Below, piece after piece: positions 16,339 through 27,794 of a stretch of DNA of 64,000 nt. How positions within the stretch are numbered: the first letter of the stretch is position 1; every line of letters starts with the position of its first letter. This stretch comes from an uncultured Clostridia bacterium (GTDB taxonomy: Bacteria; Bacillota; Clostridia; TANB77; CAG-508). Both the position numbers and the translations under genes were made by a program. The DNA lies in the NCBI GenBank assembly GCA_947624195.1, contig CANQJH010000004.1:1-64000 (forward strand). Direction: 5' to 3'. The notes under the pieces were generated by a model. The model was not told the DNA's origin and ran no database searches. It worked only from the letters and a program-made list of their open reading frames with translations.

Positions 16339-16689
16339 TTATTCTTCTTCTATGAAATTAAATTCATCTTTAAATTTTTCTTTAAAAATGTCAAATACTT
16401 TATTTAAAGTATCTTCATCTTCCACGCTAACATAAGATTCTTGTCCATCTTCTACATCTTCAGCATCTTTATCTTCTCTAAGAATTACAACTTCGTCAGA
16501 ATCTTCACTTTCAACATCCTCAGCTGGTAACAATATAACGTAGTTTTCTCCATCATATTCTATTAAATCTAAAAATTCAAAGTTTACATCATTACCCATT
16601 TCATCTTTTAATGTAACAATATTTGAATCCAAATCTTCATTACTCATGTTTTCTGAAACTTCATTATTGTTTAAATTTTCATCATCCAT
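16339..16689 (-). CDS. DUF1292-family acidic protein
   Basis: NIVTLKDEMGNDVNFEFLDLIEYDGENYVILLPA typical of DUF1292 (YrzB-like). Confidence 0.8.
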   Translation of the reverse strand: MDDENLNNNEVSENMSNEDLDSNIVTLKDEMGNDVNFEFLDLIEYDGENYVILLPAEDVESEDSDEVVILREDKDAEDVEDGQESYVSVEDEDTLNKVFDIFKEKFKDEFNFIEEE

Positions 16690-16802: not shown

Positions 16803-16998
16803 ATAAGATAAATATAGTTATTTTTGAATACGCCGCGCAGGGACCACCCGTAGCGCTAGCAAGGGTCGAATGAAGCAAATTACATACAAGCGCCCAATGG
16901 CATTATGTATTGCATGAAGTACATTAATTGCACAGCCATTAGTGGCCTTATGGAATTTGCGACAGCAAGGCATGAAAAAATAACTATATTTATCTTAT
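16803..16998. ncRNA. candidate structured non-coding RNA closed by a 23-bp inverted repeat (strand unresolved)
   Basis: Perfect IR ATAAGATAAATATAGTTATTTTT (16803-16825) / AAAAATAACTATATTTATCTTAT (16976-16998) around a GC-rich core with internal helices (GCGC/GCGC, GCAAATT/AATTTGC, TACATA/TATGTA, GCCA-TTAG-TGGC); no ORF explains it. Confidence 0.6.
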
Positions 16999-17004
16999 TA
17001 ACAG

Positions 17005-17562
17005 TTAATATAAATCGTTACCATAAATTCTCTTGTAAACCTTGTAATTATTTAAAATTTTTCTTACGTATGTATTAGTTTCTTTAAAGGGTATATTTTC
17101 TATGTCACTTCCATCTTGCCTTAATGTTCCTTCTGCTATCCATTTATTTACATTTCCTATTCCTGCATTGTAGGCAGTTAGCGCTAATTCATCATTTTTA
17201 TACATTGCTTTTAAATCTGCATAATATGCTATTCCTAAATAAATATTTTTTTCTGGATTATATAATGTAGTTCCAGATTCATACTCCATTACAGTATTTT
17301 CTGCGACCTCTTTTGCGGTTTCATCCATAAGTTGCATAAGTCCGCATGCTCCTTTTTTCGAAAGAGCACCTTCTTTAAAATTACTTTCTGCTTTTATAAT
17401 CGAATACACCAATAGTGGGTCAATATCATACTGTTTTGCATATTTTTCAACATACTCTTTGTAGTCTGTTTTATATATCATCTTTAATATTTTGTTATAG
17501 TTAGTCAATGCAACGACAATAATAGTACAACATATAACAAAAAATATTATAATTTTTTTCAT
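17005..17562 (-). CDS. lytic transglycosylase (SLT domain)
   Basis: YDIDPLLVYSIIKAESNFKEGALSKKGACGLMQLMDETAKEVA ... LTAYNAGIGNVNKW. Confidence 0.92.
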   Translation of the reverse strand: MKKIIIFFVICCTIIVVALTNYNKILKMIYKTDYKEYVEKYAKQYDIDPLLVYSIIKAESNFKEGALSKKGACGLMQLMDETAKEVAENTVMEYESGTTLYNPEKNIYLGIAYYADLKAMYKNDELALTAYNAGIGNVNKWIAEGTLRQDGSDIENIPFKETNTYVRKILNNYKVYKRIYGNDLY

Positions 17563-21800: not shown

Positions 21801-24800
21801 CTATACTACATACTTTTTAATAACAAATGCTCCTGCACCTATTATGAATATTGTTCCTGCAATTAAAGCTATATATGTTGGTGATAATCCCGTTACTATT
21901 GTTAGTATTACTGGTGCATCATCTATATCATCCTCTTGTGGCTTCTTATTGTTTGGTGTTGAGTCTATATCTGGTGAATCACTTGGGTTATCATCTTCAC
22001 TTATTTCGGCTACGTTTGTTTTTAAGTTCAAGTTATCTTCGCCATTTATCCATGTTAACACTACTTCTACTGTTGCTGATTCTCCTGGTTGTAATAATGT
22101 GTCTTTTAATTGGTCTGTTACTATTTTGTTATCTTCTTCTCTCCACTTTGGATTGTCTGCTTGGTTGAACATTAGTCCATCTGGTATATAATCTGATATC
22201 TCTGTTGCGTATCCCTCTATCTCTCCCTCGTTTGTTATTCTTATTTGATATCTAAATTTTACTATTGTGTTTTCTATTCTCTTTTTATTTAATTCAACCT
22301 TTACTGCTGGCTCTGGATCTTGCTCTGCATAATGTCCTGTGTCCATTTCTTTTTGTACACCATCTTCGATAAGGATTACTTGGCTTACCCATTTTCTTAA
22401 TGCTAAATCAAAGTATTTTACATATACATGTTCTACATCTTGATCATCATCTTCTTCTTGCCAATCATCTGGTGTAGAATCTATATCCTCTACTGGTTTG
22501 CCATTTTCATCTGTATCGTCACTTATCTCCGCATGGTTTGTCAATATTCTGTCAGATGTGTTTGGCTCTGTTACTAAAAATGCTATTTGTACATCTTTGT
22601 AATCTGGTCCATCCATTGTTTCTGCATCATATGCTTTTAACAAGAACTCGCCTGGTTCGCTTTCATTATCTTTTGATAGATAATTTGTGCGTATACTTAC
22701 TGCCTTACTTACATCTGTTGTTATATTGCCAGCTTCATCATACATTACCCAACCGTATTTCTCATTTATCTCATTGTCTGGAATATACTGCAATCCATCT
22801 GGTATATCATCTTTTATTTCAGATGCATAACCTGATTTGGTTCCCTCATTGTATATCCTAATTGTATAAATTACTATATCATTGTTTGCTACTCTTACTG
22901 GGTCTTTTGTATGCTTGTATTCCATATCTGTTATTTCTTTTCCATCTACTACAGTGCCATATTTTGAAGCATCTACTTGTGGTATTCTTGAATCGATCGC
23001 ATCATCATTTACACCAGTTATAAATTTTCTTAATGCTAAATCAAACCTTTCAACAAATAATTTTTCAAAGTCATCGTCATCTTCTTGTCCCTCATAATAG
23101 TAGTCTTTTTGAGATAAATCATCATCATTGCTGTTCTTACCCTTATAATCTGGTAATTTGTCATCAGTTGGCAATTTGGCTTTTTCTTCATTATCCCTAT
23201 CTGGAATATCATATTCATTCTTGCTTTGTGTTATTTCTGCTATATTAGTCAATCTCTTCAATGATGGAGCAGTTGGTCTTACTCTACATCTAACTTTTAT
23301 ATCTCTATAATCTAAAGTACCTTCACCACTAAATCCTTTTAATAAATTTCCTGTTCCATCTCTACTTTGAGATAGATAGTTTGTTTTTATTGTTCTTCCA
23401 GTTGAATCCGAATTATCGACACTCCATAAATATTGCTTGTTTATTGGATCATTTGGTAAAAACTCTAACTCTGGTGGTAAATGGTCTGTTATTTCTTCTG
23501 CATATCCATCGACTCTTGCTTCATTATATACTCTAATTGTGTATGTTATTATATCATTTACAGATACACTAATTGGTTCTTTGGTATGCTTGTAGTTTGC
23601 CGTCGTTTTTCCATTTAATAGTGGACTTGTATCGACCACTGGAGCTCTATCGTATACATCACCTATTTTTAGTTCAGTATCATTTATAGCTGTTATAAAC
23701 TTTCTCAAAGCTAAGTCGAAAAATGTTCCCGGTAAAACTAAATCTTCATAGTCATCATCATCTTCATAGCCTTTACCTTGTTCTGCTGTGCTAGGTCCAT
23801 AGTTATTTTTATGATCACCTATGTTGTCTGGTTCTGAGTCCCTATCAGAAACATTGTCATTGTTAGAATCGTCCGTAATTTCTGCGACATTTTTTAACTT
23901 TGTATCAGTTGTTTGTGGATTTGCAACTACTTTACACTCTACTTGAACATCTTTATAAGATATTGTATATGTGCCACTTGTTGGATTTTTATTAAATGCC
24001 TTTATTAAATTGCCACTAGCATCTTTTTGCTTTGATAAATATTTTGTTCTAATTATTTGGCTATTATTGCTATCTTCTTCCCATTCATATGTCGTATTTA
24101 TCTGGCTTTGACTTTTAGGCACTAATTGCAAACCATCAGGTAAATAGTCTGTTATCTCTTCTGCATATCCATCTATGTCACCTTCATTGTATATTCTAAT
24201 TGTATAAACTACATTATCTCCTGTATTTACAGATAATACATTTTTATTATGATTTTTATGTGCTGTAGTTCCATCAAATGCTGCGGAGCTTCCTTCTGCT
24301 AATGCTTTTAAACTATCTTGTGTGATATCTGGTGCTCTTGATGGAGTAACATTTTTGCCTGCTATTTGAGTAATAAATTTTCTTAATGCTAAGTCAAATC
24401 TTTCAACAAATACTTTTTCAAAGTCATCATCATCTTCCTGACCCTCATAGTAGTAATTTTTTTGAGATAAGTCATCATCATTGCCGTCATTACCCTTATA
24501 ATTTGGTAAGTTTGCATCAGATGGTAAATTTGCCGTTGCTTTATTGTCTCTATCTGGAATGTTGTATTCATTTTTACTTTGTGTTATTTCTGCTATATTA
24601 GTAAACTTCTTTAATGATGGAGCAGTTGGTCTTACTCTACATCTAACTTTTATATCTTTATAAGCTAAAGTTCCACTACCTTTAAATCCTTTTAATAAAT
24701 TTCCTGTTCCACCGTTACTTTGAGATAAATAGTTTGTTTTTATGGTTCTTCCGGTTGAATCTGAATTATCAACAGTCCATAAATATTGTCTGTTTACTGA

Positions 24801-27794
24801 GTCTTGTGGTAAAAATTCTAATTCAGGTGGTAAATGGTCTGTTATCTCTTCTGCATATCCATCAATTTCTGCTTCGTTGTATACTCTAATTGTATATGTT
24901 ACAACATCATTTACGCTAAGTTTAACTGGTTCTTTGGTATGAAAATAATTGGCTGTTGTTTTTCCTTGAAGAAGTGGACTTGTATCAACTACTGGAGCTC
25001 TGTCGTATACATCACCTGTTTTTAGTTCAGTATCATTTACTGCTGTTATAAACTTTCTTAATGATAAATCAAATGGTTTAACAGTATTTGTGATTGTATA
25101 TCCACTTTCTGCATTTCCTGTCATAGATGAAGTATAGTTACTTGGTACTTCTATTTCTTTTACTGAATAATTAATTAAACGCTTTACTGCTTCATATTTA
25201 TCTAATCCAGTAAAGTCTACGCTCCATCCATTACTAGCATTTAGTTCTAATGTTTTTTTAGGTTCAAATGACTGCCCATCTTTTAATAATTCTACTGTAA
25301 TTGATGTTGGTTTTTTTACACCTTGTGCACCTGCGTCATTCCAAACTTTATGAACTGGAACATGTGTTTTTTCAGGTGTGTAACTATTTGTAATTGTATA
25401 CCCGTCTTCTGCATTTCCTGATATTGATACTTTATAGCCTGATGGTGTATTGGTTTCTTGTACTGTATATGAGATTAAATTATCCTTAGATTCATATTTA
25501 TCTAAGTTTGTAAAGTCTCCGCTCCATCCATTACCACTATTTAGTACTAATGTTTTTTTAGGTTCGAATGACTGTCCGTTTTTTAATAATTCTACTGTTA
25601 CTGAATCTGTCCTTTTTCCATCTTGATTATTTGCATCTGACCATTCTTTATGAACTGGAACATGCGTTTTTTCAGGTGTGTGACTATTTGTAATTGTATA
25701 TCCAGTTTCTGCATTTCCTGATGTTGATACTGTATAGCCTGATGGTGTACTAGTTTCTTGTACTGTATATGAGATTAAACTATTTCCCGAGTCATATTTG
25801 TCCAAATCGCTAAATTTACCGCTCCATCCGTTATTATTATTTAATTCTACTGTCTTTTTAGGTTGAAACGATTGTCCATTTTTTAGTAATTCTACTGTTA
25901 CTGAATCTGGCCTTGTTCCATCTTGATTGTTTGCATCTGACCATACTTTATGAACTGAAACCTGTGTTTTTTCAGGTGTAAATTTATTTGTTATAGTAAA
26001 GCCATCAGCCGCACTTCCTGTTACTGTAGATGTATAGCCATCTGGTACGTTTGTTTCTTTTATTGTATATACAATTAACTGCCCTACATTTTTGTATTTA
26101 TCTAATCCAGTAAATTCACCACTCCAGTTATTACTTTCTCGTAATTCTAACGTTTTTTGCGGTGAAAAAGATTCTCCATCTTTTAATAATTCTACTGTTA
26201 TAGAGTCAGGTTTTGTTGCTCCTGGAGCTCCATCATTTTGCCAAACTTTATTAACTCTTACTTGAGTTTTTTCAGGCGTATAACTATTTGTTATAGTAAA
26301 TTCCGTACTTGCACTTCCAGATACTGCTGCGGTATATCCAGCAGGAGTATTTGTTTCTTTTACTGTATACGCAATTACACTTCCATTTTCATATTTAGCT
26401 AAATTACTAAATGTATATGCCCAATCATTTGCAGCATTTAATGTTGCTGTATTTCCAGTAGGAGAACCATTTTTTACCAATTCTACTGTTATTGATGATG
26501 TTCTTTTGTTATCTTGATTGTTTGCATCTGACCATACTTTTTTAACTTTTATGCTGGTGGTTTGTGGTTGTATAGTTTGTGTATCTTGAGCACTTAGACT
26601 TTTAGAATTTGTATCAATAACTACAACTGGCTGTTGAGTTTGAGTTGTATTAGCATTAGTTGTCCAATAAGTTAATGTTCTTTCATTTGTATTTGCAGAA
26701 ACTTCAATTTTTATGCTTCCAGAAGTTCCAGATGGTAATTGTAGATAAAAATTATTTCCAATTGTAGATTCTATTTTATCTTTAGTTGTACTTCCTGTAT
26801 ATTCAGAACCATTTTCTTTTACTATTTTTAGGTTGCTTGCATTAGTTATTTCGCTTGATCCGTTGTATATTCTCGCATTAAAGTTGCTATAATTTGTTGC
26901 TTCTAGTTTATATGGTCCAATTCTTACATACGTATCAGTATATGCTACTGTTGCATTTTTTGTAAAAACAAATTTTGATCCAGCTTGCTCATAATTATAT
27001 CTAGTTTGGTTATCTGGTTCAGTAATTAGATAATCATATAGCGCTCTAAGTGGATTTTCCATTTCTCTACTAAAATATTTACTTTCAATTGAAGTTCCAG
27101 TTTCTCCATTACTGTTAGCTACATATATTGTTAGATTCTGTGATGGCTTTTTTCCACCAGTTATATACCAAATTGCAGTTTGTTGTATGGCTTCTATAAT
27201 ATCCTTAAAATACTCTTCTGCCTTATTATTATCACTTAAGCTATTTGCTTCCTTTATTGCATCTATAATCTCAGATTTAGTATAATCAGCTTCTGCTTTT
27301 GTTAATAATTCATTAACCGAATTTTCATTCTCTGGTATACATATATTATCTAATAACCACATTAATTTGTTGTAATTAGTGTTAGTTGGTAAAACTTTAT
27401 TAAAAGTATCACCTATGCTAGAATAGTTTCTCATATTAAAGTAGTTACTATAAGTTACAGCTGTTGAAACAGAGCTTGAACCATCTCCTGTTCCAAACCC
27501 TAAATTATTTTTCAAACAATAAATTACTTCATTTTCCGTTCCGTTTTTCTGTGTTGCACTACTTCCCGTTCCATTTACTTCAATAATTTTAATAATTGGG
27601 ATTTTATTGTTTTCACTACTTTGACCTGAAGTATAAAATCCACTTGGTCTACCATTTCTGCTACTTTGTCCAGATTTTAGGTATAAACTTAAATATTTGG
27701 TTCCCGTGGTTCCATAACTGTTGATATTCATAAACGCTAATGTCATCAAAATTGTGAAAACACTTATAAGTAAACACCTAGTTATTTTTTTCAT
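21801..27794 (-). CDS. giant cell-surface adhesin: signal peptide, thioester (TQXA-like) domain, five Cna_B modules, five FDLALRKFI (DUF11-like) modules, C-terminal TM
   Basis: 1997 aa; IYCLKNN...IQQTAIWYITGG; repeated KxVxKxWxDANNQDGxRxDSVTVELLKNGQSF; repeated FDLALRKFIT...YTIRVYNEAExDGYAEEITDHLPPELEFLP; C-terminal YIALIAGTIFIIGAGAFVIKKYVV. Confidence 0.9.
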   Translation of the reverse strand: MKKITRCLLISVFTILMTLAFMNINSYGTTGTKYLSLYLKSGQSSRNGRPSGFYTSGQSSENNKIPIIKIIEVNGTGSSATQKNGTENEVIYCLKNNLGFGTGDGSSSVSTAVTYSNYFNMRNYSSIGDTFNKVLPTNTNYNKLMWLLDNICIPENENSVNELLTKAEADYTKSEIIDAIKEANSLSDNNKAEEYFKDIIEAIQQTAIWYITGGKKPSQNLTIYVANSNGETGTSIESKYFSREMENPLRALYDYLITEPDNQTRYNYEQAGSKFVFTKNATVAYTDTYVRIGPYKLEATNYSNFNARIYNGSSEITNASNLKIVKENGSEYTGSTTKDKIESTIGNNFYLQLPSGTSGSIKIEVSANTNERTLTYWTTNANTTQTQQPVVVIDTNSKSLSAQDTQTIQPQTTSIKVKKVWSDANNQDNKRTSSITVELVKNGSPTGNTATLNAANDWAYTFSNLAKYENGSVIAYTVKETNTPAGYTAAVSGSASTEFTITNSYTPEKTQVRVNKVWQNDGAPGATKPDSITVELLKDGESFSPQKTLELRESNNWSGEFTGLDKYKNVGQLIVYTIKETNVPDGYTSTVTGSAADGFTITNKFTPEKTQVSVHKVWSDANNQDGTRPDSVTVELLKNGQSFQPKKTVELNNNNGWSGKFSDLDKYDSGNSLISYTVQETSTPSGYTVSTSGNAETGYTITNSHTPEKTHVPVHKEWSDANNQDGKRTDSVTVELLKNGQSFEPKKTLVLNSGNGWSGDFTNLDKYESKDNLISYTVQETNTPSGYKVSISGNAEDGYTITNSYTPEKTHVPVHKVWNDAGAQGVKKPTSITVELLKDGQSFEPKKTLELNASNGWSVDFTGLDKYEAVKRLINYSVKEIEVPSNYTSSMTGNAESGYTITNTVKPFDLSLRKFITAVNDTELKTGDVYDRAPVVDTSPLLQGKTTANYFHTKEPVKLSVNDVVTYTIRVYNEAEIDGYAEEITDHLPPELEFLPQDSVNRQYLWTVDNSDSTGRTIKTNYLSQSNGGTGNLLKGFKGSGTLAYKDIKVRCRVRPTAPSLKKFTNIAEITQSKNEYNIPDRDNKATANLPSDANLPNYKGNDGNDDDLSQKNYYYEGQEDDDDFEKVFVERFDLALRKFITQIAGKNVTPSRAPDITQDSLKALAEGSSAAFDGTTAHKNHNKNVLSVNTGDNVVYTIRIYNEGDIDGYAEEITDYLPDGLQLVPKSQSQINTTYEWEEDSNNSQIIRTKYLSKQKDASGNLIKAFNKNPTSGTYTISYKDVQVECKVVANPQTTDTKLKNVAEITDDSNNDNVSDRDSEPDNIGDHKNNYGPSTAEQGKGYEDDDDYEDLVLPGTFFDLALRKFITAINDTELKIGDVYDRAPVVDTSPLLNGKTTANYKHTKEPISVSVNDIITYTIRVYNEARVDGYAEEITDHLPPELEFLPNDPINKQYLWSVDNSDSTGRTIKTNYLSQSRDGTGNLLKGFSGEGTLDYRDIKVRCRVRPTAPSLKRLTNIAEITQSKNEYDIPDRDNEEKAKLPTDDKLPDYKGKNSNDDDLSQKDYYYEGQEDDDDFEKLFVERFDLALRKFITGVNDDAIDSRIPQVDASKYGTVVDGKEITDMEYKHTKDPVRVANNDIVIYTIRIYNEGTKSGYASEIKDDIPDGLQYIPDNEINEKYGWVMYDEAGNITTDVSKAVSIRTNYLSKDNESEPGEFLLKAYDAETMDGPDYKDVQIAFLVTEPNTSDRILTNHAEISDDTDENGKPVEDIDSTPDDWQEEDDDQDVEHVYVKYFDLALRKWVSQVILIEDGVQKEMDTGHYAEQDPEPAVKVELNKKRIENTIVKFRYQIRITNEGEIEGYATEISDYIPDGLMFNQADNPKWREEDNKIVTDQLKDTLLQPGESATVEVVLTWINGEDNLNLKTNVAEISEDDNPSDSPDIDSTPNNKKPQEDDIDDAPVILTIVTGLSPTYIALIAGTIFIIGAGAFVIKKYVV
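25080..26560 (-). repeat. five Cna_B-type modules, ~300-bp spacing
   Basis: TTTTTTCAGGTGT-type module boundaries recur at about 25370, 25670, 25970, 26270. Confidence 0.85.

Follow-up and report, generated by a model that had tools for sequence, protein, structure and literature searches.

A dispersed structured repeat with copy-specific complementary arms and an invertible core in gut Clostridia

The window analyzed in this study, a stretch of 64,000 nucleotides from an uncultured Clostridia bacterium, carries at positions 16803-16998 (plus strand) a full-length copy of a dispersed repeat, in the long-form subtype of the window's genus. The repeat occurs in many copies per genome and occupies intergenic sites without orientation preference; at fixed loci its copies are inverted in place, and the two arms of a copy change in a coordinated way. 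The element is probably a copy of a non-autonomous, mobile-type repeat of the bcr1-like kind, whose core is flipped and whose arms are homogenized by exchange at the DNA level.

The outer stem of the element is formed by a left arm, ATAAGATAAATATAGTTATTTTT (16803-16825), and a right arm, AAAAATAACTATATTTATCTTAT (16976-16998), both given on the plus strand, which are exact reverse complements of each other (23/23 nt, 100%) spaced 150 nt apart. An earlier note on this DNA had described the same perfect 23-bp inverted repeat closing a GC-rich core. The arms are specific to the copy, and the left-arm role of 16803-16825 recurs in 105 other copies. The other features of the element also lie on the plus strand. 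The inner closing helix pairs GCC (16832-16834) with GGC (16969-16971), which correspond to the covarying columns 33-35 and 210-212 of alignment A3. The central hairpin P3 (16840-16867), supported by covariation and by the M-K pair and GNRA statistics of its relatives, includes a C-C/G-G helix (16848-16849 with 16864-16865) and a G-C/C-G helix closed by the tetraloop GCTA (16855-16858), where relatives have a GNRA loop; the window copy represents a subtype with this GCTA loop and a slightly different internal loop in the hairpin. The 5' strand of the P4 helix, GCAAATTAC (16875-16883, A3 columns 86-94), shows the strongest covariation of the core, its partner being the 3' strand GGAATTTGC (16952-16960). 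The variable loop of P4 (16884-16951) contains in the window's genus an extra AT-rich hairpin that is missing from the short-form copies (alignment A1).

Several helices had been proposed for this core from the sequence alone. The GCAAATT/AATTTGC helix is backed by covariation across the repeat family, while TACATA/TATGTA and GCCA-TTAG-TGGC are found only in the extra hairpin of the long form. The suggested pseudoknot of ACCC or GACC with GGGT/GGTC has to be abandoned, since the GG in question pairs with CC in an ordinary covarying hairpin. The general claim of a structured element was confirmed by shuffling: the fold has z-scores of -6.7 on the plus and -5.6 on the minus strand, far better than its own shuffles on both, none of 200 being equal. 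It was also correct that no open reading frame explains the element, the ORF scan having found one chance frame of 75 aa that overlaps its left part.

Both neighboring genes lie outside the element on the minus strand. The DUF1292 gene (16339-16689, Pfam PF06949) starts 113 nt beyond the left arm, and the stop codon of the lytic transglycosylase (SLT) gene (17005-17562, Pfam PF01464) is 6 nt from the element. The SLT gene adjoins the repeat in other genera as well: in L097 the repeat follows right after the stop codon, as in the window, and in L090, L236, and L243 it sits between PolA and SLT. This adjacency could be either a coincidence or a trace of old shared copies. Elsewhere in the window, a 1997-aa reading frame (21801-27794, minus strand) encodes a surface-protein-like product with repeated domains and a C-terminal membrane segment.

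A BLAST search with the 196-nt element yielded 48 matches in the window's own genome (G000), so that the single-copy ncRNA for which this check had been proposed was not borne out. Seventeen of the copies are near full-length (86-100% identity, the window copy counted), one is cut at its end, and three have an internal deletion; altogether, about 20 copies in the genome are full-length or shortened internally, and about 20 are truncated. Among the truncated copies (L029-L047), 13 retain the 5' (GCG-side) half and one retains the 3' half (P 0.002), and many of the truncated copies stop exactly at the stop codon of the neighboring gene. Within the window, the element is the sole significant match of the covariance model R2, with a score of 124.7 bits. 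Several short copies are arranged in tandem in G028 (L125:10195-10632), and tandem copies were also seen in G257, G258, and G259.

The repeat was detected by BLAST in 6 of the 31 genomes of the genus. The first covariance model, built from 40 copies, identified it in 82 of 243 genomes and 20 of 39 genera of the taxonomic family. With the improved model, 58 of 194 genomes in a sample of the order were positive, all from the same family, and no genome outside the carrier family was positive in a sample of 291 genomes of the class. An exact core pattern matched, among named genomes, only uncultured Clostridia assemblies, nearly all of them 'Lapin' bins, which we read as rabbit gut samples; three genomes of this type contain 63, 61, and 25 copies. 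The carrier family of gut Clostridia is known here mostly from metagenome-assembled genomes. No match to the repeat was found in the viral contigs, phages, and plasmids searched. Rfam 15 produced no match for the element at the gathering score and, at E<=10, no more than two matches to eukaryotic snoRNAs, both well short of the respective cut-offs; ten diverse relatives matched nothing at E<=1. No description of this Clostridia repeat family was found in our literature searches. The repeat is dispersed, lineage-restricted, and conserved in its fold, as are structured interspersed repeats of the bcr1 kind.

Covariation in the core, which had been suggested as a check, is indeed present throughout the repeat family. 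When the columns of an alignment of 36 diverse sequences were scanned without guidance, seven predicted pairs ranked at the top. In the proposed core helices, 94.6% of cells are paired, and 86 two-sided changes were counted, compared to 24 +/- 4 after shuffling and at most 16 with the partner slid. The central hairpin follows the pattern M-C-(GNA)-G-C-[GNRA]-G-C-(GNA)-G-K. Across 108 copies, its M-K pair is C-G in 73, A-T (A-U) in 33, and A-G, which is unpaired, in two, with no instance of C-T; 93 of the copies have a GNRA tetraloop. P4 is a second covarying hairpin, the first nine pairs of which include six GT and no AC. The core evolves in the manner of a nucleic acid that folds and base-pairs; its RNA nature is not certain, because G-U pairs are rare even here, P4 included. 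In two ortholog pairs of G023 and G028 (L113/L124 and L118/L133), the members are almost the same except in the P4 loop, where they differ en bloc in a way suggestive of conversion from a different copy.

The arms follow different rules. In 105 copies from related genomes, arm pairing is 95-100% at columns 9-23 and 83-95% at columns 24-35, and falls to the background level past column 36. In older copies, the arms are about 95% complementary within a copy and unrelated between copies: the between-copy identity is 75.4% for arms, compared to 72.4% for shuffled arms and 94.9% for cores. In the window's own genome, where the copies are probably younger, the arms are still recognizably related (about 69% without gaps). 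The mismatches in the arms of the 105 copies comprise 24 GT and 21 AC, whereas tRNA stems of related genomes, used as a control, have 25 GT and no AC (Fisher P 2e-5). Selection on RNA tolerates G-U but not A-C; therefore the pairing of the arms is not maintained at the RNA level, and this ratio rules out a selected RNA helix for them.

Changes at fixed loci can be followed between the related species G258 and G257, represented, like all inversion data here, by metagenome assemblies. Among 21 mapped copies, eight have the same orientation, eight are inverted, and five are without an intact copy. In the inverted pairs, differences adjacent to the core move with the core, and those beyond approximately 35 nt stay with the flank; therefore the exchange point lies inside the arms. 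G023 and G028 provide one further core inversion of this pattern. At four columns in a set of 16 ortholog pairs, the two arms have undergone the same substitution, compared to a chance expectation of 0.07 columns calculated from the 19 one-sided changes. Template switching at inverted repeats is known to homogenize arms and to invert the spacer (PMC8604942; PMC8794818). Recombination between the arms would give the same result, and our data are compatible with either. At the fixed loci of G258 and G257, identity is 98.3% in the core and 95.7% in the flanks, for a set of copies selected for core integrity in one of the two species; among the orthologs still present, 16 of 17 are also intact. 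The slower change of cores than of flanks is compatible with some copies serving the host.

In our interpretation, the two arms act like any other inverted repeat of DNA. An exchange between them at the time of replication, by template switching or recombination, would copy one arm onto the other, and this copying would erase mismatches and sometimes flip the core. More speculatively, the folded core, as RNA or single-stranded DNA, might be recognized by a putative trans-acting enzyme that makes new copies; such recognition could explain why conservation falls on the core and not on the ends.

In favor of a mobile-type repeat, the G023 locus syntenic to that of the window copy carries the same set of genes but lacks the element. 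The other insertion sites are less easily reconciled with mobility. Most element-free sites in close relatives lack additional flanking sequence as well, with edges at direct repeats of 6-11 bp; since these sites mostly resemble deletions, no clean empty target was obtained, and the direct repeats at some of them fit deletion equally well. No target-site duplication is visible at the ends of 21 copies from the window's own genome. Insertion into the loop of a palindrome, or arms copied from the target, found no support either, the candidate empty sites being without both arms and deletion-like. Neither a parental element nor a protein partner was found: none of the copies examined contains an ORF, no ORF-sized spacer with a complementary arm was seen among 224 5' cores, and RVT_1 had no match in the carrier genomes G027 (93% complete) and G028 (72% complete), which is compatible with a gene in the missing parts of these genomes or with past activity. 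The rarity of G-U pairs in the core also counts against the bcr1-like mobile reading, as does the slower change of cores, which would not be required of an inserted copy that is purely selfish. A 180-bp AT-rich stretch of G028 (L138:5654-5834) that is absent from G023 (L105:9000-9003) is apparently unrelated to the repeat.

More tentatively, the repeat could represent a new class, a bacterial analogue of SINEs that spreads via its folded core, in which the complementarity of the ends, and not their sequence, matters and is renewed by template switching.

It is unlikely that the copies are functional ncRNA genes or RNA regulatory elements, maintained by host selection after a dispersal long past. 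Such a role would agree with the strong covariation and GNRA loops of the core, with the conservation of cores relative to flanks, and with the persistence of intact orthologs, but not with the flipping of copies in place, the range of 0 to 63 copies among the genomes of one family, or the abundance of truncated copies in the window's own genome. Nor is there any orientation preference toward genes: in tandem gene pairs, the two orientations were counted 20 and 16 times (P 0.6), and the copies face genes in every way, which speaks against a cis-regulatory element. A terminator was rejected as well, as copies flanked by convergent genes show no clear excess (12 of the 57 for which both neighbors were called). 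From the ncRNA proposal of the earlier note, the structured, covarying, ncRNA-like core survives; the single copy and the likeness to raiA do not.

An ordinary MITE, with ends bound by a transposase encoded elsewhere and a passive interior, was the alternative offered in that note, and with dozens of copies per genome it came closer than raiA or a single-copy ncRNA. Bacterial MITEs resemble the repeat in their small size, AT-rich ends with terminal inverted repeats, lack of an ORF, and many intergenic copies. The pattern of conservation is however reversed, the interior being conserved between copies while the terminal repeats vary and yet match each other within a copy. With no target-site duplication visible at the sites examined, and no longer element having the same ends and an ORF, we consider this explanation improbable, and in its strict version the present data suffice against it.

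Invertons, phase-variation switches in which a site-specific invertase flips the core and turns neighboring genes on or off, share with the repeat an invertible segment lying between inverted repeats, and half of the copies shared by the sister species are inverted, the switch occurring within the arms. An invertase nevertheless needs a recognizable site, and the arms are unrelated between copies; the copies moreover commonly lie beside the 3' ends of genes and in the gaps between convergent ones, and inversion of any 35-bp inverted repeat at a low rate would probably randomize orientation over the divergence of G258 and G257. Phase variation is thus a very improbable explanation. The raiA motif or another described large ncRNA, suggested by size and general look only, is refuted as far as Rfam 15 extends, with no match for the window copy or its ten relatives and with a multi-copy distribution.

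The bcr1-like mobile-type reading can be compared with several known systems. As summarized in PMC6542083 (citing Okstad 2004 and Kristoffersen 2011), bcr1 and related repeats of the Bacillus cereus group are 100-400 bp long, with a mean of 39 bcr1 copies per strain, are confined to one bacterial group, and have mobile features and no known enzyme; bcr1 is described as a structured stem-loop family (PMC2267715). The Clostridia repeat is likewise interspersed, group-restricted, structured, and of mobile type, a likeness at the level of description. On the same descriptive level, the TTTAT motif to which bcr1 mobility is tied (PMC6542083) was not found in the Clostridia repeat, and these accounts describe for bcr1 neither arms that are copy-specific and complementary nor inversion in place. 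Template-switch mutations show the same arm homogenization and spacer inversion but are known from yeast genes, microRNAs, and rRNA (PMC8604942; PMC8794818), whereas here they would affect dozens of copies of one repeat. Copy-specific arms, probably kept complementary by DNA-level exchange, and frequent in-place inversion are features that the accounts cited above do not describe for the known kin of the repeat. Similar length and a multi-helix fold are found in the raiA motif and other large bacterial ncRNAs of Rfam. Unlike them, the Clostridia repeat matches no Rfam covariance model, is multi-copy, and has arms free of RNA-type constraint.

The repeat adds to a family of gut Clostridia an abundant element family that is absent from Rfam. 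Its arms also call for caution, as an outer stem can covary perfectly, and lack G-U pairs, without being under selection as RNA. One small element separates RNA-type evolution, in the core, from the evolution of a DNA inverted repeat, in the arms, and its dozens of natural replicates per genome provide a direct test bed for template switching during bacterial replication.
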